12,712 nucleotides of DNA, from NCBI GenBank assembly GCA_025453925.1, contig JALOPK010000136.1, positions 1 to 12,712 of the forward strand. Direction: 5' to 3'. Below the pieces are notes generated by a model. It had not been told where the DNA came from. It was given only the letters and a program-made list of their open reading frames with translations, and did no database searches. The stretch is from Candidatus Eiseniibacteriota bacterium (GTDB lineage: Bacteria > JAFGKV01). How positions within the stretch are numbered: the first letter of the stretch is position 1; every line of letters starts with the position of its first letter. A program made the translations under genes and the position numbers. Shown here piece by piece: positions 757 to 12,171 of this stretch.

Positions 757-1020
757 CAGGCCGCAGGCATGCCCCGGTGCGTTGTCGGCCTGAGGCGGCC
801 GCGAAGCGGGTCTCACCTGCGGGTCCGGCCGCATTTGACAAGAAGGGGGGGAGACAGGAACTTCGTCGCGTCTCATTGATCCACAGTCACCATGCCCGAT
901 CGAACTCCCGCGCCAGGCCTCGGTGGCCGTGGTTGACGGGGCTCGTTTTTTCGATTCGGCAGATGATTCGCGGTGTTCGCCGCATCGCAGCGCCGCGGGA
1001 TATGGTCGAGCCGTGCACAT

Positions 1021-1029
1021 GGAGGAGAG
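1021..1029 (+). promoter_or_regulatory. Shine-Dalgarno of gdh
   Basis: GGAGGAGAG, with the GGAGG core six bases before the ATG at 1032. It settles the start: the frame stays open upstream to 729, but that extension has no homology-like features and no ribosome site. Confidence 0.85.
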
Positions 1030-1031
1030 CA

Positions 1032-2318
1032 ATGGCGAAGGGTGCGTTCAATCCGTTTGAGATGGCGCAGAAGCAGTTCGATAGCGTCGCGGATCTGTTG
1101 GGTCTGGATCAGCCGACCCGAGATCTGCTCCGCTGGCCGATGCGCGAGTACCACTTCAACATCCCGGTGCGGATGGATGATGGGTCCGTGCGGGTGTTTC
1201 GCGGGTTCCGATCCCAGCACAACGACGCCCGCGGTCCGTGCAAGGGAGGAATCCGGTTCCATCCCCAGGAGACCATCGACACCGTGCGCGCGCTGTCCAT
1301 GTGGATGACCTGGAAGTGCTCGGTCGTCGATATCCCTCTGGGCGGAGGCAAGGGCGGCGTCATCTGTGATCCGCACGATCTGTCCGAGCGGGAGCAGGAG
1401 CGGCTCTGCCGCGGGTGGATCCGCCAGATCGCGAAGAACGTCGGTCCGCTCAGTGACGTGCCGGCGCCGGACGTTATGACCAATCCGCAGCACATGCTGT
1501 GGATGCTGGATGAGTTCGAGGTCATCCAAGGCGCCAAGTACCCGGGTTTCATCACCGGCAAGCCCGTGGGCCTGGGCGGATCGCTGGGGCGCACGGAAGC
1601 CACCGGCTACGGAGTCGTGTACACGCTCCGCGAAGCGCTGAAGGAGATGGGCGTCAGGCCTGAGGATACCATCGCCGCAGTCCAGGGATTCGGCAATGTC
1701 TCCCAGTATGCCATCCAGCTTTACTCCCAACTGGGCGGCACCGTGATCTGCGTGTCGTGCTGGGACCAGGCCGACCAGCTCTCCTATACCTACCGGAAGA
1801 AGAGCGGGATCAGCCTCGAGGAGCTGCTGGCGATTACCGACCGGTACGGCGGGATCGACAAAGGCAAGGCTCAGGATCTTGGATACGAGCGGCTCCCCGG
1901 CGACGCGTGGATCGAGCAGGATGTTGACGTTCTCATCCCGGCCGCGCTGGAGAATCAGGTCAATGCCGAAACCGTGAAGAAGATGAGCAGGCGGGTGAAA
2001 GTCATCGTCGAAGGCGCCAACGGGCCCACGACTCCCGATGCCGACGCCGTCCTCAAGGAGCGGGGCGTGTTCGTGATTCCCGACTTCCTGGCCAATGCCG
2101 GCGGGGTCACGTGCAGCTACTTCGAACAGGTTCAGTGCAACATGAACTACTTCTGGACGAAGGACGAAGTGCTGGGCAAACTGGACCAGAAGATGACCGC
2201 CGCCTTCATCGCCGTCAGCGATCTGGCGCGGAAGCGCAAGCTCTTCATGCGTGATGCCGCGTACGTGATCTCGGTCAGCCGAGTCGTCGACGCGTGCAGG
2301 GCCCGCGGCTGGGTCTAG
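1032..2318 (+). CDS. gdhA: Glutamate dehydrogenase (Glu/Leu/Phe/Val dehydrogenase family)
   Basis: Catalyses reversible oxidative deamination of L-glutamate to 2-oxoglutarate and ammonium, in the cytosol, normally as a hexamer. The product has 428 residues, the usual length for bacterial and archaeal NAD(P)-GDH. Substrate-domain motifs are complete: KGGIRF (Lys71), Lys95 in MTWKC, PLGGGKGG with Lys107, PAPDV with Asp147, and Ser362 in GGVTCSYFE. The spacings 71-107, 95-107 and 107-147 equal those of Lys89, Lys113, Lys125 and Asp165 in the Clostridium symbiosum enzyme, so catalysis should be intact. The Rossmann domain carries GFGNVS (219-224), with Ser at the usual third Gly/Ala position, and the end of the second strand reads SCWDQ, so NAD versus NADP cannot be called. 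The conserved C-terminal part includes VEGANGPTTP and DFLANAGG. Glutamate is preferred over leucine or phenylalanine as substrate because of the lysine set. A strong hairpin follows 16 bases after the stop; the next genes lie on the same strand. Confidence 0.95.
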   Translation: MAKGAFNPFEMAQKQFDSVADLLGLDQPTRDLLRWPMREYHFNIPVRMDDGSVRVFRGFRSQHNDARGPCKGGIRFHPQETIDTVRALSMWMTWKCSVVDIPLGGGKGGVICDPHDLSEREQERLCRGWIRQIAKNVGPLSDVPAPDVMTNPQHMLWMLDEFEVIQGAKYPGFITGKPVGLGGSLGRTEATGYGVVYTLREALKEMGVRPEDTIAAVQGFGNVSQYAIQLYSQLGGTVICVSCWDQADQLSYTYRKKSGISLEELLAITDRYGGIDKGKAQDLGYERLPGDAWIEQDVDVLIPAALENQVNAETVKKMSRRVKVIVEGANGPTTPDADAVLKERGVFVIPDFLANAGGVTCSYFEQVQCNMNYFWTKDEVLGKLDQKMTAAFIAVSDLARKRKLFMRDAAYVISVSRVVDACRARGWV

Positions 2319-2334
2319 TCTCGATTCAGGCTCC

Positions 2335-2365
2335 ACACCCTCCCCGGAATCCCCGGGGAGGGTGT
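2335..2365 (+). terminator. Perfect 13-bp hairpin after gdh
   Basis: ACACCCTCCCCGG (2335-2347) and CCGGGGAGGGTGT (2353-2365) pair without mismatch around the loop AATCC. Only ATGCTTTCC follows, so there is no proper U-tract. It lies between the gdh stop and the next start 37 bases downstream, so it may end gdh transcription partially or stabilise the 3' end of the gdh message while letting some read-through reach the following pair. Confidence 0.65.
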
Positions 2366-2402
2366 ATGCTTTCCGGCCACTTCCCACTCGTCGGGGTGCA
2401 GC

Positions 2403-4136
2403 ATGAGTGAACTCTCGGTCTTCGATCGCAGGTTCTTTGGCGGAGAGAGCGCAGTGACGCGCATCGGCACGGGATCGCTGGGAGGCAAGGCCCAGGGGCT
2501 CGTCGCCATCGAACAGACCATCCGGCAGCAATTCCCCCCGGAACGAACAAAAGGCTTCACGATCACCATTCCCCGGATGACGGTGATCGGCACTGATTTC
2601 TTCGATGCGTTCCTCGCGCAGAACGGTCTTCTGGAGATCGCCTACTCCGATGCTCCCGATGATCGCATCGGCCACGCCTTCCAGCGCGGCGATCTGCCGC
2701 CGCGCCTGGTGGGGGATCTCCGGGCGGTGACCGGCGAAGTTCGCACGCCCCTCGCCGTCCGCTCCTCCAGCATGCTCGAAGATGCCCTGTATCAGCCGTT
2801 CGCCGGGGTATACGCGACGAAGATGATCCCGAACAACCAACCCGATCCCGATCTGCGCTTCCGGCGTCTCGTCGAGGCGGTCAAGTTCGTCTGGGCCTCG
2901 ACCTTCTTCAAAGAGGCGAAGACCTACCTCAAGAGCGTGGGGAAGGATCCCTCGGTGGAGAAGATGGCGGTCATCATCCAGGAAGTCGTCGGGGCGCCCG
3001 CCACGGATCGGTTCTACCCGACCTTCGCCGGCGTCGCCCGCTCCTACAACTTCTACCCGTGCGGGTATGCCAAGCCGGAAGACGGCGTAGTCGATCTGGC
3101 CCTGGGCCTGGGCAAGACCATCGTCGACGGCGGACGGGTGTGGAGCTACTCTCCGGCCTACCCCAAGGCCCCCCCTCCGTACGGGAACGTCGGCGACATG
3201 CTGAAGAACACGCAGACGACGTTCTGGGCCGTGCACATGGGATCTCCCCCGCCACACGATCCGATCCGGGAGACGGAGTACATGATCGAGCTCGGTCTCG
3301 ACGCGGCCGACTACGACAATACGCTGCGCTTCGTGGCGTCCACGTATGATCCCGGCGCCGACCGGCTGGTGCCTGGGGTGGGTTCGGACGGGCCGCGGGT
3401 GGTGAATTTCGGCCCGATCCTCGACTACGAGGAAGTCCCTTTCAATGACCTCATCCGCGCGGTGCTCAAGGCCTGCGAGGATGCCGTCAAGGCCCCCGTC
3501 GAGGTGGAGTTCGCCGTGACGCTGGACCGGAAGCGCGGCCTGCCCGCCCGGTTTGGCTTTCTCCAGGTGCGCCCCATGGTGGTCTCGTCGGAGGAAATCG
3601 ACCTGCCGCGTGAACGGCTTGCGGGCGATGAGGTGGTCGTGGGTTCCGAGACCGTGCTGGGGAACGGGCGGCGGGATGACATCCAGGACATTGTCTATGT
3701 GATCCCCGAGTCTTTCGAGCCCCGCTTTACCGCCATGATCGCGGCCGAACTGGAGCGGATGAACGCTGAGCTCGCCGACCAAGGCAGACCGTACCTCTTG
3801 GTCGGTTTCGGGCGCTGGGGTTCCTCAGACCCCTGGCTGGGCATCCCCGTCACCTGGAGCACGATCTCCGGATCCCGCGTCATCGTGGAAGCCACGCTCC
3901 CACAGATGCAGCCCGACATGAGCCAGGGTTCCCATTTCTTCCACAACCTCACCAGTTTCAAGGTCTCCTATTTCTCGGTCCGCCACACGGGTGCGCATAC
4001 CATTGACTGGGATTGGATCGGCGCGCAAACTGAGGTGTCCAGAGCCCGGTTTGTCCGCCATGTGCGGACTGAGACACCCCTCTCGATCCAAGTGGACGGC
4101 CGGACGGGCCGGGGAGTGATACTGCGTCATGGATAA
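2403..4136 (+). CDS. PEP/pyruvate-binding (PPDK N-terminal type) ATP-grasp protein, short form
   Basis: A 577-residue protein built on the nucleotide-binding domain of PEP synthase and pyruvate phosphate dikinase. Visible landmarks in order: SLGGKAQGL (about 25-33), LAVRSSSMLED (117-127, Arg120), KMAVIIQEVVG (187-197) with TFAGVARS after it, and VEVEFAV...FLQVRP (366-391), which closes the ATP-grasp fold and carries the Glu and Gln/Arg expected near metal and ATP. Residues about 420-530 form a second module with GFGRWGSSDPWLG (468-480) and SQGSHFF (507-513). There is no phosphohistidine swivel domain and no PEP/pyruvate TIM barrel, so it cannot carry out the full PEP synthase reaction alone. 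No signal peptide, so probably cytosolic. The ribosome site is weak (GGGGTG, four bases before ATG). The stop overlaps the start of the next gene by 8 bases, implying coupled translation and a shared job. Exact reaction unknown. Confidence 0.88.
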   Translation: MSELSVFDRRFFGGESAVTRIGTGSLGGKAQGLVAIEQTIRQQFPPERTKGFTITIPRMTVIGTDFFDAFLAQNGLLEIAYSDAPDDRIGHAFQRGDLPPRLVGDLRAVTGEVRTPLAVRSSSMLEDALYQPFAGVYATKMIPNNQPDPDLRFRRLVEAVKFVWASTFFKEAKTYLKSVGKDPSVEKMAVIIQEVVGAPATDRFYPTFAGVARSYNFYPCGYAKPEDGVVDLALGLGKTIVDGGRVWSYSPAYPKAPPPYGNVGDMLKNTQTTFWAVHMGSPPPHDPIRETEYMIELGLDAADYDNTLRFVASTYDPGADRLVPGVGSDGPRVVNFGPILDYEEVPFNDLIRAVLKACEDAVKAPVEVEFAVTLDRKRGLPARFGFLQVRPMVVSSEEIDLPRERLAGDEVVVGSETVLGNGRRDDIQDIVYVIPESFEPRFTAMIAAELERMNAELADQGRPYLLVGFGRWGSSDPWLGIPVTWSTISGSRVIVEATLPQMQPDMSQGSHFFHNLTSFKVSYFSVRHTGAHTIDWDWIGAQTEVSRARFVRHVRTETPLSIQVDGRTGRGVILRHG

Positions 4137-7100
4137 TACCACCAAAGCAGCGGGAACGCTGTTCTCCACGCTGCATGAGCGGGCCAAGGAGCTGCGATGC
4201 CTGTATAGGGCGGAGGAGCTGCTCAACGACCCAAGCACGTCGCCCGAAGAGGCGTTCATCGGCGTGGCCCAGGCGATCCCTCCCGCTCTGCAGCACTCTG
4301 ACATCTGCGTCGCCGAGATCACCTACGGGCCGCATGTGTATCGGACCGACGAGATCGAGCCGACACCATGGGGGCTCTGCGCGGACATCAGAGTGCAGGA
4401 CACTACGGTGGGCAAGATCTGCGTCTACTACCGGGAGGAGCGCCCCCAATCGGGGGAAGGGCCCTTCCTCATCGATGAAGTCAAGCTCATCCGCACCATC
4501 GCCGACCGGCTCGGCCATTTCATCCTTCACCATCGCCTTCGCGCCATGTTCGCCACGGTCCAGGAGGCACGAGAGCGGCTCATCGACACGGCGCGCCCCG
4601 AGTGGTCCATGGCGCTGGGCCTGCTGAAGAAGACCGACACGGGGCTTCTCACCCGGCTGTCCAGGAAAATGATCAACTACCTGGGTTGGATCGGGGCAGC
4701 CGAGGCCCGCTCCCTGTTGCAGCGGTACGGGCAGGACGAGGGTGAGAGCGTGTTCGGCGAGAGCAATCAGCCGCAGCTTCTGGCGGAACCCGAGAGTGCG
4801 GGAACCCTGAGCGACGAGACGTTCAGGGTCTCGACCCGCTATCTCACCGACGTCGAGATTCTCGAGCGGATCGAACGCTGGATCCAGGAGGATCGTTCGT
4901 CGGAGCTTGTCCGGATGCTGCAGAACGTCTATGCGCCGCTCACGGATATCCTGGACTCCATGCAGAAGCTGCGAAGGATGATGCCCGGGGGCGCGGCCCT
5001 GCCGACGGCCGCGGAGAAGGGCGTCAGAGTGGCGCTCATTCGGCGCTTCTTCACCGAACAGCTCGAGTACATCAACCGGGCCAAGCGATTCATCGAGATT
5101 GAGGACTTCTTCGAACTGAGCGAGCGGATCATTTTCCCGGCCGGAAGCTACGGAAGGCTGGGCGGGAAGACGGCCGGCCTGTTCCTGGCCAGCCGGATCC
5201 TCCGAAGGATGGCCGCGAAGAACCCGGGCATCGGCACCGTGAAGACGCCGCGGACGTGGTTCGTCGCCTCCGACGGCATCCTCGCGTTCATCGGGCACAA
5301 CAATCTGGGGGAGGCCTACGAACAGAAGTACAAGGAGGTGGATGAGATCAGGCGGGAGTATCCCCAGCTCGTGCAGGTGTTCAAGCACTGCTACTTCCCG
5401 CAGGAGTTGCTGAAGGGGCTCTCCCAGGCGTTGGACGATCTGGGTGAGGTGCCCGTCATCGTGCGCAGTTCCAGTCTTCTGGAAGACCGTCTCGGCACCG
5501 CCTTCTCCGGGAAGTACAAGAGCCTGTTTCTCGCCAACCAGGGCACCAGGGATGAGCGTCTGGCTGCCCTTGCCGATGCGGTGGCCGAAGTCTACTCCTC
5601 GACCTTCGGCCCCGACCCCATAGAGTACCGCGCCGAGCGCGGCCTTCTGGATTTCAATGAGGAGATGGGGGTCATGATCCAGGAGGTAGTGGGCAAGCGG
5701 GTCGGCAAGTATTTCCTCCCCGCCTTTGCCGGCGTGGCGTTCAGCCGCAACGAATTCCGCTGGTCGCCCCGCATCAAGCGGGAAGACGGGCTGCTGCGCC
5801 TGGTGCCCGGCCTCGGCACCCGCGCCGTGGACCGGGTGGGTGAGGACTATCCGGTGCTGGTGGCGCCCAGCAAGCCGAATCTGCGCGTGAACGTATCGTT
5901 GGATGAAGTGATCCGTTACGCGCCCAAGAAGGTTGACGTGATCAACCTGGAGAAGAACTGCTTCGAGAGCCTCGACATCCGGGAGCTGCTCCGGGAGTAC
6001 GGCCCTGAGTATCCAGACATCAACAACGTCTTCTCGGTGCAGACCGGGGGGATGCTCAAGCGCGGCGTCGGGCTCATGACGGATTTCGAGCATGACGACG
6101 TCGTGGCGACCTTCGACGGTCTCGTGCTCGCCAGCCCCTTCGTGAAGCAGATGGAGACGATCCTGAAGACCCTGGAACAGGCACTGCAGACGCCCGTGGA
6201 TGTCGAGTTCGCCCACAACGGTACCGACCTGTTTCTCCTCCAGTGCCGGCCTCAGGCATCGTCGGGTGACGACGTTGCGGTGGACATACCCAAGGGCTTG
6301 CCGGACAATGCGGTTCTCTTCACCGCCAACCGTTTCGTCTCCAACGGGCGCGTGCCCGATCTCACCCACGTGGTGTATGTCGATCCTGACCGGTATGGGG
6401 AGTTGGCTGACCTGTCCGACCTCTATGCGGTCGGAGAGGCGGTGGGACGTCTGAACAAGATCCTCCCCCGAAGGAAGTTCGTGTTGATGGGTCCCGGCCG
6501 CTGGGGCAGCCGGGGTGACATCAAGCTCGGGGTGCGGGTCACCTATTCGGAGATCAACAACTCCGCCATGCTCATCGAAGTGGCGAGGAAGAAGGGCGGG
6601 TACGTGCCCGATGTGTCATTCGGCACCCACTTCTTCCAGGATCTGGTCGAGGCCTCCATCCGGTACCTGCCGTTGTACCCCGACACTGACGGCACCAGGT
6701 TCAACGAAGGGTTCCTCCTGGGCGCGCCTCATCACCTCGCGGAGCTGCTCCCCGAGTTTGCCCGCCTGGCTGACACCGTTCGCGTGATCGACGTGCCCCA
6801 GGCGACCGGCGGCAAGGTGCTGCGCATTCTCATGAATGCCGAGCAGGAAGAGGCGTTGGGCTGTTTCGCGGAACCGACGGCCGCGATCCGTAGTGTGGAT
6901 CGTCCCGAGGCGACCTGCCAACAGGAAGGCGACCAGAACTGGCGGTGGCGGCTCAGGATGGCCGAGCGGATTGCAGCCCAGACCGATCCCAGGCGATTCG
7001 GCGTCAGGGCCATGTACGTGCTGGGCAGCACGAAGAACGCCTCGGCCGGACCTGCCAGCGACATCGATCTTCTGATCCATTTCGCCGGGACTCCGCCCCA

Positions 7101-7314
7101 GAAGGATGACCTGAACCTGTGGCTGGAGGGGTGGAGCCTCTGTCTGGCGGAGTTGAACGAGGGGCGCACCGGTTGCCGCACCGGAGGGCTCCTGGACGTG
7201 CATATCGTCACCGACGACGACATCGCCCGGGGTGACAGCTTCGCCGTCAAGATCGGCAGCACCGGCGATGCAGCCAGAGAGCTGCCGATGAAGGGCGGTC
7301 TGATGGCGTCATAG
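4129..7314 (+). CDS. GAF-like / PEP-pyruvate-binding ATP-grasp / nucleotidyltransferase fusion protein
   Basis: A 1061-residue cytosolic fusion. Residues about 10-140 look like a GAF sensor (CADIRVQDTTVGKICVYY, then DEVKLIRTIADRLGHFI); this call is moderate. About 140-335 is charged and helical. The ATP-grasp part has YGRLGGKTAGLFLA (341-354), VIVRSSSLLED (443-453, Arg446), MIQEVVGKRVGKYFLPAFAG (516-535) and VDVEF...FLLQCRP (690-708). The GRWGS module follows: GPGRWGSRGDIKLG (788-801) and SFGTHFFQDL (830-839). Residues about 935-1061 are a Pol-beta/MNT-type nucleotidyltransferase: VLGSTKNASAGPASDIDLL gives GS-x10-D-x-D (Asp978, Asp980), and LLDVHIV gives the third acidic residue (Asp1023). 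There is no swivel histidine or TIM barrel. The start overlaps the upstream gene by 8 bases. I recall similar fusions annotated only as PEP/pyruvate-binding proteins; what it senses and which molecule it nucleotidylates are unknown. Confidence 0.88.
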   Translation: MDNTTKAAGTLFSTLHERAKELRCLYRAEELLNDPSTSPEEAFIGVAQAIPPALQHSDICVAEITYGPHVYRTDEIEPTPWGLCADIRVQDTTVGKICVYYREERPQSGEGPFLIDEVKLIRTIADRLGHFILHHRLRAMFATVQEARERLIDTARPEWSMALGLLKKTDTGLLTRLSRKMINYLGWIGAAEARSLLQRYGQDEGESVFGESNQPQLLAEPESAGTLSDETFRVSTRYLTDVEILERIERWIQEDRSSELVRMLQNVYAPLTDILDSMQKLRRMMPGGAALPTAAEKGVRVALIRRFFTEQLEYINRAKRFIEIEDFFELSERIIFPAGSYGRLGGKTAGLFLASRILRRMAAKNPGIGTVKTPRTWFVASDGILAFIGHNNLGEAYEQKYKEVDEIRREYPQLVQVFKHCYFPQELLKGLSQALDDLGEVPVIVRSSSLLEDRLGTAFSGKYKSLFLANQGTRDERLAALADAVAEVYSSTFGPDPIEYRAERGLLDFNEEMGVMIQEVVGKRVGKYFLPAFAGVAFSRNEFRWSPRIKREDGLLRLVPGLGTRAVDRVGEDYPVLVAPSKPNLRVNVSLDEVIRYAPKKVDVINLEKNCFESLDIRELLREYGPEYPDINNVFSVQTGGMLKRGVGLMTDFEHDDVVATFDGLVLASPFVKQMETILKTLEQALQTPVDVEFAHNGTDLFLLQCRPQASSGDDVAVDIPKGLPDNAVLFTANRFVSNGRVPDLTHVVYVDPDRYGELADLSDLYAVGEAVGRLNKILPRRKFVLMGPGRWGSRGDIKLGVRVTYSEINNSAMLIEVARKKGGYVPDVSFGTHFFQDLVEASIRYLPLYPDTDGTRFNEGFLLGAPHHLAELLPEFARLADTVRVIDVPQATGGKVLRILMNAEQEEALGCFAEPTAAIRSVDRPEATCQQEGDQNWRWRLRMAERIAAQTDPRRFGVRAMYVLGSTKNASAGPASDIDLLIHFAGTPPQKDDLNLWLEGWSLCLAELNEGRTGCRTGGLLDVHIVTDDDIARGDSFAVKIGSTGDAARELPMKGGLMAS

Positions 7315-7388: not shown

Positions 7389-8264
7389 CTACAGCAGCTC
7401 GCGGGTCGCGGCCGCGGGGTCTTCCAGGGTGAAGCTCACCAACGCGAGCTCCGGCCCGTCATGGGCGGCGGTGAACATCTGGGTTCGACCGCTCACGTCC
7501 CGCCAGGAGCCGGTGAGCCGGGCCGATTCGTGGATATGCCCGTGCATGGTGACGAGGGGTTGTCTCTCCTGGATGAACCGCGAGATGGCGATGCTGCCCA
7601 CGTGCACGTCCATGGGCACATGATCCACCATTTTGCCATCCAGGCCAGCACGATCCAGGGCGGTCTTGTACGGAGGCGAGTGGAACAGAAACACCGAGTC
7701 GGACAGATCGCGGTCACCCGTTAGGCCCGCCAGGTCCTGACTGATGGTGGAGAACATGGTTTCCGACTCCGACATCGGGACTGAGCGAAACCCCTCCTCG
7801 GGCGAGATGCAGCCCGGATCGACATACCGCGACACGTCGTAGCGCTCCCAATCCTTGAGCAAGAACGGTGTGGGGGGCACGAAGCTGTAGCCATAGATGT
7901 CGAACTGCCGCACGGAGATGCGGCGGCTGTGGGCGTAGTGCCAGAGGCCCCGCGCCGCGACGTCCAGCATCGCCGCCTCTTCGAATCGCGCATCGTCGTT
8001 GCCCAGGATCGCGAAGACTCGTGGGTACGCCAAACCGACGGAACGCTTCAGCCGTTCCAATTCCTTGGCGAGGAACCCGTTGATGAAATCCTCGTGGGCG
8101 CTTCCCGACGTGAACTGGAACATGCCGGATGGCAGAAGGTCACCGCCGAGGAACACCATATCGGGGCGGCGGTCTGCCATCACGTCGAACAGCTTCCGAT
8201 ACCGGTATTCGGAACCGTGGATATCGGTGACGAAGAGGCATTGTGTGGGCCGTTTCCCCGGCAT
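7389..8264 (-). CDS. Calcineurin-like metallophosphoesterase
   Basis: A 291-residue protein with the complete two-metal phosphoesterase motif set: FVTDIHG (Asp14, His16), FLGGDLL (Asp42), ILGNDDARFE (Asn89), FLFHSPPY (His195) and TMHGHIHES (GHIH, His243 and His245). The family hydrolyses phosphomonoesters, phosphodiesters or nucleotides; nothing here fixes the substrate. The GND-D-ARFE arrangement and the insert containing SYFVPPTPF-like residues (about 126-135) resemble the group of standalone bacterial metallophosphoesterases annotated as hypothetical phosphatases, not MutS- or UDP-diacylglucosamine-type enzymes. No signal peptide or membrane segment. The ATG at 8264 is preceded by AAAAGGA at good distance. 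It is convergent with the fusion protein and follows the amylase gene on the same strand, 333 bases away across a repeat array, so it is probably transcribed separately. The palindrome just upstream suggests repressor control. Confidence 0.88.
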   Translation of the reverse strand: MPGKRPTQCLFVTDIHGSEYRYRKLFDVMADRRPDMVFLGGDLLPSGMFQFTSGSAHEDFINGFLAKELERLKRSVGLAYPRVFAILGNDDARFEEAAMLDVAARGLWHYAHSRRISVRQFDIYGYSFVPPTPFLLKDWERYDVSRYVDPGCISPEEGFRSVPMSESETMFSTISQDLAGLTGDRDLSDSVFLFHSPPYKTALDRAGLDGKMVDHVPMDVHVGSIAISRFIQERQPLVTMHGHIHESARLTGSWRDVSGRTQMFTAAHDGPELALVSFTLEDPAAATRELL

Positions 8265-8302: not shown

Positions 8303-8351
8303 CCGAGAGAGGGTGCCGTGAATGTCCACCCCCGGATCGAACTCAGGCCCT

Positions 8352-8485
8352 GCCCTGTTGGAGCGGTGTAAACCGCGACGGTGCCCGTCCCTCCTCAGAG
8401 CCGGCCCTGTTGGAGCGGTGTGAACCGCGACGATTCCCCGTCCTTCCTCATACCCTGCCCTGTTGGAGCGGTGTAAACCGCGACG
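8352..8485. repeat. Three REP-like palindromic repeats (52-53 bp period)
   Basis: Three copies of a 29-base unit lie at 8352-8380, 8404-8432 and 8457-8485; the core is TTGGAGCGGTGTAAACCGC. They differ at one base only (A to G at 8422). Each contains the stem GCGGT / ACCGC with loop GTAA, GTGA, GTAA. The 23- and 24-base intervening segments resemble each other (CCCGTCC, TCCTCA), so the true unit is about 52-53 bases. The GGAGCGG...CCGC form with a preceding GTTG resembles the REP elements of Pseudomonas and relatives (GTAGGAGCGGG...). Bases 8303-8351 before the array show nothing recognisable. Confidence 0.75.
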
Positions 8486-8493
8486 CTCCCCGA

Positions 8494-8611
8494 CGCGCCT
8501 CGCGGCACTCCAACCGTGCTTCTACTCCAGACCCTGCCCTACCGGAACCGACCGCGCCTCGCGGCACTCCAACCGTGCTTCTACTCCAGACCCTGCCCTA
8601 CCGGAACCGAC
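8494..8611. repeat. Perfect 2 x 59-bp tandem duplication
   Basis: 8494-8552 and 8553-8611 are identical. Each copy contains CCCTGCCCTACCGGAACCGA, whose first nine bases match the lead-in of the REP-like units (8452-8460) but whose hairpin is lost, so these appear to be decayed or recombined members of the same array. The second copy includes the stop codon and last few codons of the amylase gene. Confidence 0.85.
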
Positions 8612-11600
8612 CCAGGCCGAACCGACCGCCGGGCCCGGGCGAGTTCTGGGCGGCGGTCCCGTTGCTGGAGAATTCGAAACGGCCTTCGGCAACCGACGCG
8701 GCGCCGCGGTTCGCCGACGTGTCCCAGGCCAGGATCCTATAGAACACTCGCCCGCCGGGCGGCGCGGCATCCACGAACGAGGTGCCGCCGGCCGAGGCCA
8801 GGAACGTGGGGCTCCCGGCATCGAAGTAGGCGCTGGTGGACCGGAAGACCTCGTAGTAGGCGATGTTCTCCGGCTGCCCCAGGCTGTCGTGCGTCACCGC
8901 GGACCAGGATACCGTGATGGAACCGCCGCCGGGTGTCAGCGTCACAGTGGCCGGCGCTGCGGGCGGCACGGAGTCCCACGTCCAGCGCTTGGCGCGGCAG
9001 TAAACCCGGGCTTCCGAGCCGGGGATGGTGACCACCCGTGGCGAGGAGCCCACCGACACCGTGGAGTCACCCAGGAACTCATACCACGTGCCCGTGACCG
9101 GGAAGGCGACGCTGACCGCCTTGGCGTTGCGGTCGAAGTTGGCGACCACCACCACCGAGTCGGTGCCCGCATCGGTGTATCGCCAGAATGACAGGGTATG
9201 ATTGGCATTGTCACTGAGGGTTGTGTAGAGGTTCCCGCTGGTGAGCGACGGGTAGTTCTTCCTCAGCCAGATAAGGCGCGAGTACAGTTGGTAGAGTGCC
9301 GATCCCACGGGCTGCTCCAGATACTCCCAGTGCAGGGGATTGGGATCGATGGTTCGCTCCGTGTCTTCCCCGAACTCCTGGCCGTGGTACAGCATCGGGG
9401 TGCCCGTGGAGGTGAAGAGCATGGCTGCTCCGAGCTTGGATTTCTTGACCGCAAGATCATAGTCGATGGCGGGGTTGGTCTGGGCCTCCCAGACGATGCG
9501 CTGCTCGTCGTGGCTCTCGGTGTAGTTCACCACCTCCGTCTCGTCCGCGAAGCCGTCCCCGGCGTAGTGGATCGCCTGGGCCGTGACGCCCATGTTGCCG
9601 TAGGACGAGCCTTCGAACTGCCCTTCCCGCAGATTGGCTTTCATCTGATCGTGGAAGGTGTCGTGCCAGCCCGAGGTCGCCTTGGTCCCGGATACCACGG
9701 CGGGATCCTGGGGAAGGTGTTCCAGCACCTGGTAGACGTCGTTGTCAAAGTCCCACGCGACGTACGTGAAGTACCCGATGCCGTTCCCCGTATCGTCGCC
9801 CACGCCGTCCCATCCGATGAAGGTGGTTGCGTCGTAGCGGAACCCGTCCACGTGATACTCGCCCATCCACGTCTCCAGAACGTCCTTGCTGAGCTGCTTG
9901 GTGCCGGAGCTCCAGTGATCAAGATCGGGGAACCCCCAGGGGTTGGTCATGGCATGGAACCATGGGCTGGCATCCCAGTCTTCACCGTAGAGACGGTAGA
10001 GCGAGGCCGACGCGTCGAGATGGTTGAACACCATGTCGATGAGGATGGCGATGCCGTACGAGTGGGCGGTGTCCACCAGAGTCTTCAGGTCGTCCGGCGT
10101 GCCGTAGACGGCCTCGGGGGCCATGTAGTAGGCCGGGTTGTACCCCCAACTGATGCCGCCGGGGAACTCGTAGCACGGCATGATCTCGACCGCGTTGATG
10201 CCCAAGGATGCGAGGTACGGCAGGCGGGCCTGCAGACCGGCGAAGTCGCCTGATTCGGAGAAGTCACCCAGATGGGTCTCGTAGATGATCATGTCCTCCG
10301 GCGCGGGCCGGGACCATGCGCCATCGGTCCACGGGAAGGGCGAGGCCCCCACCTCGATCACCGATTTCGCGACGCGCCAGTCCCCTGATTGCGATCCGCC
10401 GTCCGTCCAGTTGAGCTGGCGGGCATAGGGGTCGGCGATGGGCAGAATGCCGTCCACGAGGTAACGGTAGTCGTAGGTGCCGTTGGCAAGGGGCAGCGTC
10501 GTCCACCAGACGCTGTCCGCGTAGACCTTGAGCAGCGTGGCATCGCTGTCCCACGAGTTGAAGTCGCCGGGCAAGGTCACGAAGTGCTTGCCCGGAGCCC
10601 ACAGCATGAAGGTCACGGTGCCATCGCCATTGTCGAACGCGCCGGGAGAGGCGCCCGCGGGCGGCTCCTCTTCCTCGACCGTAGGGGTCACCCATGCATA
10701 GCCATAGTCGAACGCCACCAGGCCGCCGGCGTTCTTCGCTTCGACTACCAGCAGATGCCGCCCCAGGGAATCGGTCTCCGTGTACCATTCGTAGGGTGAC
10801 GACGTGGCCACGTCGGCGCCGTCGAGCCAGAGGGTAGCCTGGACTGCGCCGGTGCTGGTCCAGGAGATGCTCACGGTATCGCCGTGAACGAACGACGTGT
10901 CGGATGGAGGAAAGGTAAGCGTTGCCGTGGGCTCGCCGGCCCCCGGCACGAGCCAGAGGGCGATCTGGTAGTCGAGCCCTCCGTTGTTGTCCCAGGTATC
11001 GTCGTCCCAGTGGAGCACGAAGTCAGCCGTCCGTACCAGTTGTTCCCCGGTGTTGAAGGGGCCGAGGGTGATGCTGCACTCGCCGTTGCCGTCCGGCCCG
11101 TCCAGGGGGCTCTCGACGGCCCCGGTTCCCGACGCCGAACTTCCCGCGGGCCAGTAGGCGGGAATGGGCTGAGTCCACGTGCCGTCATTGGTGTTGACGC
11201 CCCAGTGCAGGTTGCCACTCTGGGTGCAGTCGCGGATGACGACTTCGACCGTGTCATTGGGGCCCGGAGGGTCTCCTGTCCAGAACACGCTGCCCTGGGC
11301 CGCGTCGTAGAAGACGCCGTCATTGGGGTTGATCTGCGGGCCGAGACGGAAGCCGTAATGATGCGTGAAGGTCTTATCGTTGATGCCGTCGGACGTGCCG
11401 TTGTCCGGGACCGCCGCGTAGAGCCAGCCCCATCCGGGGTTGGACGCCGAGGCGAGGTCCCTGGCGTACATGACCATGTGGATGTGGGAGCCGTAGGCGA
11501 AGTGCGAGCGGGGGATGGCCGTCTCGAAGTACGACGTCGACCACGCGACATGATACCCGCCGCGAAGGTCCGTGGTGCCGCCGGCTCCATCGCGATACCA

Positions 11601-12017
11601 GGCCGAACCAACGTGCTGCCAGACGTGCTTCTCCGGCGCGCCCGCATTGGCCTTGGCGGAGTAGAGGAAGTCGGCATTGAACGGCAGATGCACCGTGGAC
11701 CCGGCAAACCACTGCTCGTAGGGGAGGGTCGAGTCGCCGGCGCCTTCGGAGAGGCCGGGCATCGGGTCGCTGTCGATGGCGATGAAGAGGGCCTGGTTGT
11801 ACCCGCTGTTGTCGTTGATGTTGATGCCCTCGAAGCCGATGTAGAGCGAGTCGGCGTCCCAGGTGATGTAGCCGTACTTGCCCGTCGTCGAGGTGGTCCA
11901 CTTCTCGCCGGCGGCATCCCATTCGGAGAGATTGCCGTCGACGGTGACTGAGTGGTAGGTGGCGGCCTGGGCCAGCAGGGGAGCGAAAAGGAGGGAGAGT
12001 ACGAGGCAGCGGCGCAT
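8598..12017 (-). CDS. Secreted multi-module GH13 alpha-amylase/pullulanase-like enzyme
   Basis: An exported 1139-residue alpha-glucan hydrolase. ATG at 12017 is chosen over an upstream ATG at 12077: AGGAGG lies six bases before it and the protein then begins with a classic signal peptide (MRRCLVLSLLFAPLLAQA, cut before ATYHS). Modules: CBM9/glucodextranase-like beta domain (about 20-230; VDGNLSEWD, YITWDADSLYIGF), a starch-binding-like domain of CBM25 style (about 232-357; WTQPIPAYWP, WDNNGGLDY), an Ig-like domain (about 362-445), an acidic linker EEEEPP, a CBM48-like domain (about 456-545; FMLWAPGKHFVTLPGDFNSW), GH13 catalytic barrel (about 575-925), C-terminal beta domain, and fibronectin III (about 1018-1112). 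Catalytic regions: DMVFNH (661-666), GFRYD (nucleophile Asp729), VLEHLP (acid/base Glu766), ESHDE (Asp837). All three catalytic acids are present. The final tail GRFGLGRFR is encoded in the 59-bp duplication and no sorting domain is visible. Hydrolase versus branching or debranching activity is undecided. Confidence 0.9.
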   Translation of the reverse strand: MRRCLVLSLLFAPLLAQAATYHSVTVDGNLSEWDAAGEKWTTSTTGKYGYITWDADSLYIGFEGININDNSGYNQALFIAIDSDPMPGLSEGAGDSTLPYEQWFAGSTVHLPFNADFLYSAKANAGAPEKHVWQHVGSAWYRDGAGGTTDLRGGYHVAWSTSYFETAIPRSHFAYGSHIHMVMYARDLASASNPGWGWLYAAVPDNGTSDGINDKTFTHHYGFRLGPQINPNDGVFYDAAQGSVFWTGDPPGPNDTVEVVIRDCTQSGNLHWGVNTNDGTWTQPIPAYWPAGSSASGTGAVESPLDGPDGNGECSITLGPFNTGEQLVRTADFVLHWDDDTWDNNGGLDYQIALWLVPGAGEPTATLTFPPSDTSFVHGDTVSISWTSTGAVQATLWLDGADVATSSPYEWYTETDSLGRHLLVVEAKNAGGLVAFDYGYAWVTPTVEEEEPPAGASPGAFDNGDGTVTFMLWAPGKHFVTLPGDFNSWDSDATLLKVYADSVWWTTLPLANGTYDYRYLVDGILPIADPYARQLNWTDGGSQSGDWRVAKSVIEVGASPFPWTDGAWSRPAPEDMIIYETHLGDFSESGDFAGLQARLPYLASLGINAVEIMPCYEFPGGISWGYNPAYYMAPEAVYGTPDDLKTLVDTAHSYGIAILIDMVFNHLDASASLYRLYGEDWDASPWFHAMTNPWGFPDLDHWSSGTKQLSKDVLETWMGEYHVDGFRYDATTFIGWDGVGDDTGNGIGYFTYVAWDFDNDVYQVLEHLPQDPAVVSGTKATSGWHDTFHDQMKANLREGQFEGSSYGNMGVTAQAIHYAGDGFADETEVVNYTESHDEQRIVWEAQTNPAIDYDLAVKKSKLGAAMLFTSTGTPMLYHGQEFGEDTERTIDPNPLHWEYLEQPVGSALYQLYSRLIWLRKNYPSLTSGNLYTTLSDNANHTLSFWRYTDAGTDSVVVVANFDRNAKAVSVAFPVTGTWYEFLGDSTVSVGSSPRVVTIPGSEARVYCRAKRWTWDSVPPAAPATVTLTPGGGSITVSWSAVTHDSLGQPENIAYYEVFRSTSAYFDAGSPTFLASAGGTSFVDAAPPGGRVFYRILAWDTSANRGAASVAEGRFEFSSNGTAAQNSPGPGGRFGLGRFR

Positions 12018-12023
12018 CAGGAA

Positions 12024-12029
12024 CCTCCT
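12024..12029 (-). promoter_or_regulatory. Shine-Dalgarno of the amylase gene
   Basis: A consensus AGGAGG on the minus strand, six bases before the ATG at 12017. It places translation start directly at the signal peptide and excludes the 20-residue arginine-rich extension. Confidence 0.85.
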
Positions 12030-12171
12030 GCGATCAGGGTGCATACCCGGTGGAGATGCTCTCCGACGACCCAACATGGCGGCCCGTGGCAGAAGATCAA
12101 GTGATGGAGCGACCGCTGCGTACTCCGCCCTCTCGTCCTCCTGTCGCTACGTCACTCTGCGGCGTGCCCCT

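Follow-up and report, generated by a model that had tools for sequence, protein, structure and literature searches.

The gene at the center of this study raises the question of what a protein does when a sensor domain, an ATP-grasp domain and a nucleotidyltransferase are joined in one chain. It lies in a stretch of 12,712 nucleotides from a Candidatus Eiseniibacteriota genome (contig JALOPK010000136.1; hereafter, the window), where it runs from 4129 to 7314 on the forward strand with an ATG start and no internal stop. Its product of 1061 amino acids, here called protein B, is a GAF / ATP-grasp / GRWGS-HFF / nucleotidyltransferase fusion. The original prediction was of a signalling or modifying enzyme, which fits all the evidence presented below; it missed that the gene is one of four, together with those for glutamate dehydrogenase (GDH), a short ATP-grasp paralogue (protein A) and a convergent metallophosphoesterase (MPE). 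This conserved cluster narrows the likely target and role of protein B.

Domain Architecture of Protein B

Searching bacterial and archaeal genomes, we found at least 580 stretches that code for relatives of protein B, and we took the best 80 as homologous loci. Nearly all of these 80 cover the full query, at 50-84% identity, and they come from Fermentibacteria, Aminicenantes, Zixibacteria, Ignavibacteria, Eisenbacteria, Krumholzibacteria, Acidobacteria, Calditrichota, Bacteroidota, and others. With the exception of the GRWGS module, the domains of protein B are all from known families. An AF2 model of the entire protein, built from an alignment of 78 sequences, has a mean pLDDT of 82, and fold comparison with this model bore out the GAF-like region that had been proposed: residues 10-145 (4156..4563, forward strand) correspond to the GAF domain of a Pseudomonas sensor kinase (3cit; Z 13.6, rmsd 2.3 over 126 residues) and match other GAFs as well. 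No Pfam match was found for this region.

The ATP-grasp domain, also foreseen as being of the PEP synthase type, is unambiguous. It is of the PPDK type (5155..6288, forward strand) and occupies residues 343-720, where Pfam detects PPDK_N with an E of 3e-58; in the fold comparison, residues ~303-715 of the AF2 model align with Rph, PEP synthase and PPDK at Z 17-25, and HpeI is a further match. K347, R446, D691, E693, Q705, and R707 are invariant across about 100 relatives, save for D691E in three, and by motif we take them to be the equivalents of PPDK K22, R92, D321, E323, Q335, and R337. The PEP-utilizer swivel and TIM-barrel domains of Pfam are absent from protein B at E<=1, a Pfam scan found no small-molecule acceptor domain, and the C-terminal place of the PEP/pyruvate TIM barrel is taken by the nucleotidyltransferase (residues 935-1056). 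With acceptor and canonical swivel domains missing, protein B is not an ordinary PEP synthase or PPDK. It also differs from Rph and HpeHI, its closest solved ATP-grasp folds, which phosphorylate small molecules via a swivel histidine and an acceptor domain, neither of which was found in B.

Between the ATP-grasp domain and the nucleotidyltransferase lies the GRWGS...HFF module (6289..6870, forward strand; residues 721-914), for which Pfam gave no match. It is named for GRWGS at residues 790-794 and for the histidine-containing FGTHFFQD at 831-838, and both R791 and H834 are invariant in all homologues checked, including 78 B sequences. A profile comparison with the swivel domains of 16 PPDKs gave no similarity, so that at the profile level the module does not look like a homologous swivel domain. 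When residues 716-1061 are modelled on their own (pLDDT 85), the conserved (T/S)H opens a helix between two strands, which is the same local arrangement as that of the PPDK TSHAA phosphohistidine. The alignments of the whole model to PEP synthase and PPDK extend to residues 914-933, which is suggestive and below residue-level evidence. In a fold search with the model of residues 716-1061, nucleotidyltransferases took up the matches listed. The original prediction had swivel histidine and TIM barrel both absent; this holds for the canonical domains in Pfam, but His834, to judge from its conservation and predicted setting, could stand in for the swivel histidine. The module may be a swivel analogue with a phosphohistidine role.

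The C-terminal domain is a minimal nucleotidyltransferase (NTase; 6931..7296, forward strand; residues 935-1056). In full-length protein B, Pfam NTP_transf_2 matches residues 956-993 with an E of 6e-4, just under the Pfam cut-off; the C-terminal domain alone clears it (24.3 vs 21 bits), and homologues of B reach E values of 5e-7 to 8e-7. The family motifs are present as GS...SDIDLL and a third Asp in LLDVH. As anticipated, structure prediction and fold search place an NTase fold here: the C-terminus of the whole model resembles the minimal NTases 2rff, HEPN-MNT (7ae9), and AadA, and the model of residues 716-1061 matches MNT and AadA/ANT enzymes, with a best Z of 7.3 that speaks for the fold level only. 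HEPN-MNT (MntA) antitoxins and AadA/ANT are the closest NTase folds, but they are stand-alone proteins with neither an ATP-grasp domain nor a link to GDH, and there is no HEPN gene among the neighbors of B. The proposed Pol-beta/MNT triad is well kept, with Asp978, Asp980, and Asp1023 present in 95, 93, and 95% of 83 aligned sequences. This conservation has exceptions, since the triad is not conserved in three Aminicenantes (L032, L033, L034) and in two further homologues (G157, L097), which are rare secondary losses; some relatives of protein B have no NTase domain at all.

A Conserved Cluster With Glutamate Dehydrogenase

The cluster opens with a GDH1-type glutamate dehydrogenase of 428 amino acids (1032..2318, forward strand; start chosen by homology), identified by Pfam ELFV_dehydrog (E 6e-69) and ELFV_dehydrog_N. 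GDH is a main enzyme of ammonium assimilation. A GDH orthologue precedes A and B on the same strand, within 1 kb, in 62 of the 80 homologous loci, a count that includes the loci where A is missing and GDH directly precedes B. Most of the loci without a near GDH are on short contigs or at contig ends. Four lack it despite at least 1 kb of upstream sequence (L043, L065, L069, L083), in two of the 80 it is 3.3-3.6 kb away, and one has it divergently. Two genomes (G002, G107) look unlinked only because of contig breaks between the two genes: GDH closes one contig, and A lies at the end of another.

As a control, we listed all PPDK_N genes and all ELFV dehydrogenases in 27 genomes. GDH was found within 6 kb of 35 of the 51 A, B, or related C genes (described below) and of none of the 31 ordinary PPDKs (Fisher p 4e-11, a value that ignores relatedness and counts apart the A and B of one operon as well as related genomes). 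In a sample of 290 genomes, GDH1 is present in 23 of the 26 that have a B relative vs 71 of the 264 others. The link to GDH is therefore shown statistically. It is also kept by the homologues that have no NTase, so GDH may go with the ATP-grasp core. A scan for promoters and terminators gave no more than expected by chance.

Protein A (2403..4136, forward strand) is a short ATP-grasp paralogue of 577 amino acids made of PPDK_N (Pfam E 8e-33) followed by the GRWGS...HFF module; it has neither NTase nor GAF. It has residues that are invariant across 55 orthologues, and those of the module are shared with B. The genes for A and B overlap by 8 bp in the window, and in most loci the overlap is 4 or 8 bp, which suggests that their translation is coupled.

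A third group of relatives, the C proteins, are of ~1000 amino acids with a REC-REC-ATP-grasp arrangement: receiver-like domains precede PPDK_N and, in nearly all, the GRWGS...HFF module. Their genes mostly adjoin a different kind of GDH (GDH2, ~459 amino acids) and some adjoin GDH1, in varying orientations, which means that two kinds of GDH are partnered by one catalytic core. One example is found in Parabacteroides distasonis (locus L279; NZ_OY725790.1, 3175-7659), where the C protein WP_041525632.1, annotated as a 'PEP/pyruvate-binding domain-containing protein', is encoded divergently from gdhA at a distance of 195 bp; a second GDH gene lies ~3.5 kb beyond it. This Bacteroidota type shares with B the PPDK_N and GRWGS...HFF core and the place next to gdhA, and differs in having receiver-like domains instead of a GAF and no NTase. 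No MPE was found beside the Bacteroidota C-type gene. At the contig end of another locus (L167, in G107), GDH1 and GDH2 are divergent neighbors, so that both partner kinds stand side by side.

The Nucleotidyltransferase and Its Metallophosphoesterase Neighbor

The fourth gene (7389..8264, reverse strand) encodes a calcineurin-like metallophosphoesterase of 291 amino acids (Pfam Metallophos, E 1e-9) that is convergent with B. The two genes are tail-to-tail in 46 of the 47 loci holding an MPE, with a gap that is mostly 2-50 bp. A Melioribacter locus (L049) also has GDH, A, B, and MPE together. Eighteen loci have an intact NTase and no adjoining MPE, and 10 of these have one elsewhere in the genome. 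Among the 290 sampled genomes, nine have a close MPE orthologue (E<1e-99); all nine encode a B with an intact NTase, and in three the MPE is at another place. Overall, an MPE is present in 64 of 74 cases with an intact NTase vs none of 19 where the NTase is absent or degenerate.

On the tree of the ATP-grasp core, the NTase decayed independently three times (the Aminicenantes L032-L034, G157, and L097), and the MPE is gone in each. The Aminicenantes are close to the clade of the window; they keep the length of the NTase with the catalytic Asp replaced, protein A is missing, and their genomes are without MPE. The core persists through this repeated decay. The reverse case, an intact NTase without MPE, arises about nine times on the core tree, and the ten cases concerned indicate that the MPE is not obligatory or that other esterases serve. 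The cases counted are related, and the comparison comes down to four independent contrasts, with which a sign test (p 0.125) cannot reach significance. The coupling of NTase and MPE is thus a strong association with thin phylogenetic replication.

A Putative Control Cassette for Glutamate Dehydrogenase

What could these four proteins do together? The explanation that we favor, and to which we give a little less than an even chance, is a dedicated GDH control cassette made of a GAF-gated dikinase core, an NTase "writer" and an MPE "eraser." The GAF domain of B would sense a small-molecule or redox signal, and its ATP-grasp domain would split ATP as in PPDK, PEP synthase, and Rph and hand the phosphoryl group on to GRWGS...HFF, where the invariant His834 may receive it. 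The module would then act on a protein partner and not on pyruvate, with protein A adding a second such core. The MNT-type NTase would nucleotidylate a member of the cassette, probably with AMP and in the simplest case GDH or A/B, and the convergent MPE would take the group off again. The net effect would be to tune ammonium assimilation or glutamate breakdown. GDH itself may be the modified protein; a search for a GDH residue that tracks the NTase, as a modification site might, gave only clade signatures.

We infer a regulatory role over a metabolic one after weighing the idea that A and B form a metabolic dikinase, in which the core would phosphorylate a small compound akin to glutamate or 2-oxoglutarate, which the NTase would activate by nucleotidylation, while GDH supplied the substrate and the MPE recycled the nucleotide or phosphate product. 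Such an enzyme would be in keeping with the nearest solved ATP-grasp relatives, Rph and HpeI, which are small-molecule kinases (HpeHI, PMC12167813), with the antibiotic-modifying AadA/ANT among the nearest NTases, and with the translational coupling of A and B. However, the Pfam scan gave it no small-molecule acceptor domain, the NTase is dispensable and decays while the core stays, and two different kinds of GDH are partnered. Moreover, the GAF on B and the receiver domains on C are signalling inputs and look regulatory. We consider a metabolic dikinase improbable.

An autoregulatory arrangement is also unlikely in our view. Here the core would regulate GDH, and the NTase-MPE pair would write and erase a mark that sets the kinase, placed on B or A and not on GDH. 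This would agree with the observation that GDH goes with the core, being linked to NTase-less homologues as well, and MPE with the NTase; HEPN-MNT (7ae9) provides a case of an MNT enzyme that modifies its own partner. Yet it points to no specific site, and sequence alone does not separate it from the control cassette.

More doubtful still is that the genes share nothing but their expression, A, B, and GDH being co-regulated genes of amino-acid catabolism and B reading the energy state in order to act elsewhere. The gaps between GDH and the next gene are often 50-250 bp and may hold promoters, and the MPE, encoded on the opposite strand, is found at a different site in some genomes. Against this, gene order and adjacency persist across phyla, GDH stays beside B where A is missing, and the C proteins have another kind of GDH as their neighbor, with varying orientation. 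That the MNT-like domain and the MPE serve in defense or as a toxin-antitoxin pair is very improbable, as the weak PADLOC matches behind it (PDC-S09 for the NTase, E 1e-5; PDC-S10 for the phosphoesterase at 7389-8264, E 2e-7) are short and probably generic, the partner is a housekeeping GDH, the spread is broad at one conserved locus, and 72,556 plasmid records contained no more than two relatives, both distant, of the C type, and on large Bacteroidota replicons that are non-mobilizable.

The control cassette would fit a known kind of regulation, the covalent control of nitrogen enzymes, in what appears from its domains to be a new form. With GlnE and GlnD it shares an NTase of the Pol-beta type within a large multidomain protein, a tie to nitrogen assimilation, and a proposed reversible nucleotidylation. 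Protein B is nevertheless not a member of either family, the required domains being missing: GlnE has a tandem NTase with GlnD_UR_UTase, and GlnD combines NTase, GlnD_UR_UTase, HD, and ACT, whereas a Pfam scan of B found a single NTase, not in tandem, and no GlnD_UR_UTase, HD, or ACT. B instead joins a minimal MNT/AadA-like NTase to GAF and a PPDK-type ATP-grasp, a calcineurin-like phosphoesterase encoded apart from it would act as eraser, and the partner is GDH. A precedent in the literature for such a core is VadK (Rv1127c) of mycobacteria, a PPDK-derived kinase that lacks the pyruvate/PEP domain, undergoes autophosphorylation on His, and binds to metabolic enzymes (PMC13400623). Both have a PPDK ATP-grasp without the pyruvate/PEP barrel and a proposed role as regulator of metabolic enzymes; in B, the canonical swivel (His422 in VadK) is replaced by GRWGS...HFF, GAF and NTase are added, and the partner is GDH instead of the methylcitrate cycle.

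The genomic background is of interest in this respect. A P-II domain was detected in three of 16 genomes encoding B, the same search being positive in 13 of 14 control genomes, and a GlnD/GlnE-type domain was likewise detected in three of the 16. At 82% completeness, the source assembly of the window says little by a single absence; the scarcity of P-II and GlnD/E over nearly complete B genomes carries more weight. A further-reaching proposal, which we regard as possible and put forward tentatively, is that a PPDK-derived dikinase whose phosphocarrier (GRWGS...HFF) is of a new type governs GDH, that the fused NTase writes and a dedicated phosphodiesterase erases a second mark, and that this undescribed, phylum-spanning system replaces P-II, GlnD, and GlnE. 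We found no description of a system of GDH with a PPDK-like/NTase protein in the open-licence literature searched, many subscription journals being outside it. Glutamine synthetase and P-II are the main known cases of post-translational control in ammonium assimilation, and a GDH cassette across many uncultured phyla could explain how nitrogen flux is controlled without P-II, GlnD, and GlnE. The receiver-domain relative beside gdhA in gut Bacteroidota extends this theme, and a function would be given to many proteins named only 'PEP/pyruvate-binding domain-containing protein'.

Other Features of the Window

Two long open frames on the reverse strand, of 969 codons (873-3782) and 803 codons (3958-6369), are antisense to GDH/A and to B, respectively, and we rejected them as genes since they are mirror frames of high-GC coding DNA. 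Beyond the MPE, positions 8598-12077 on the reverse strand encode a large alpha-amylase-family protein with a signal-peptide-like N-terminus, a CBM48, and a domain resembling the Ig-like N-terminal domain of alpha-glucan water dikinase. Between the MPE and amylase genes (8342-8612) are two adjoining short tandem arrays, with units of 53 and 59 bases in 2-3 copies.
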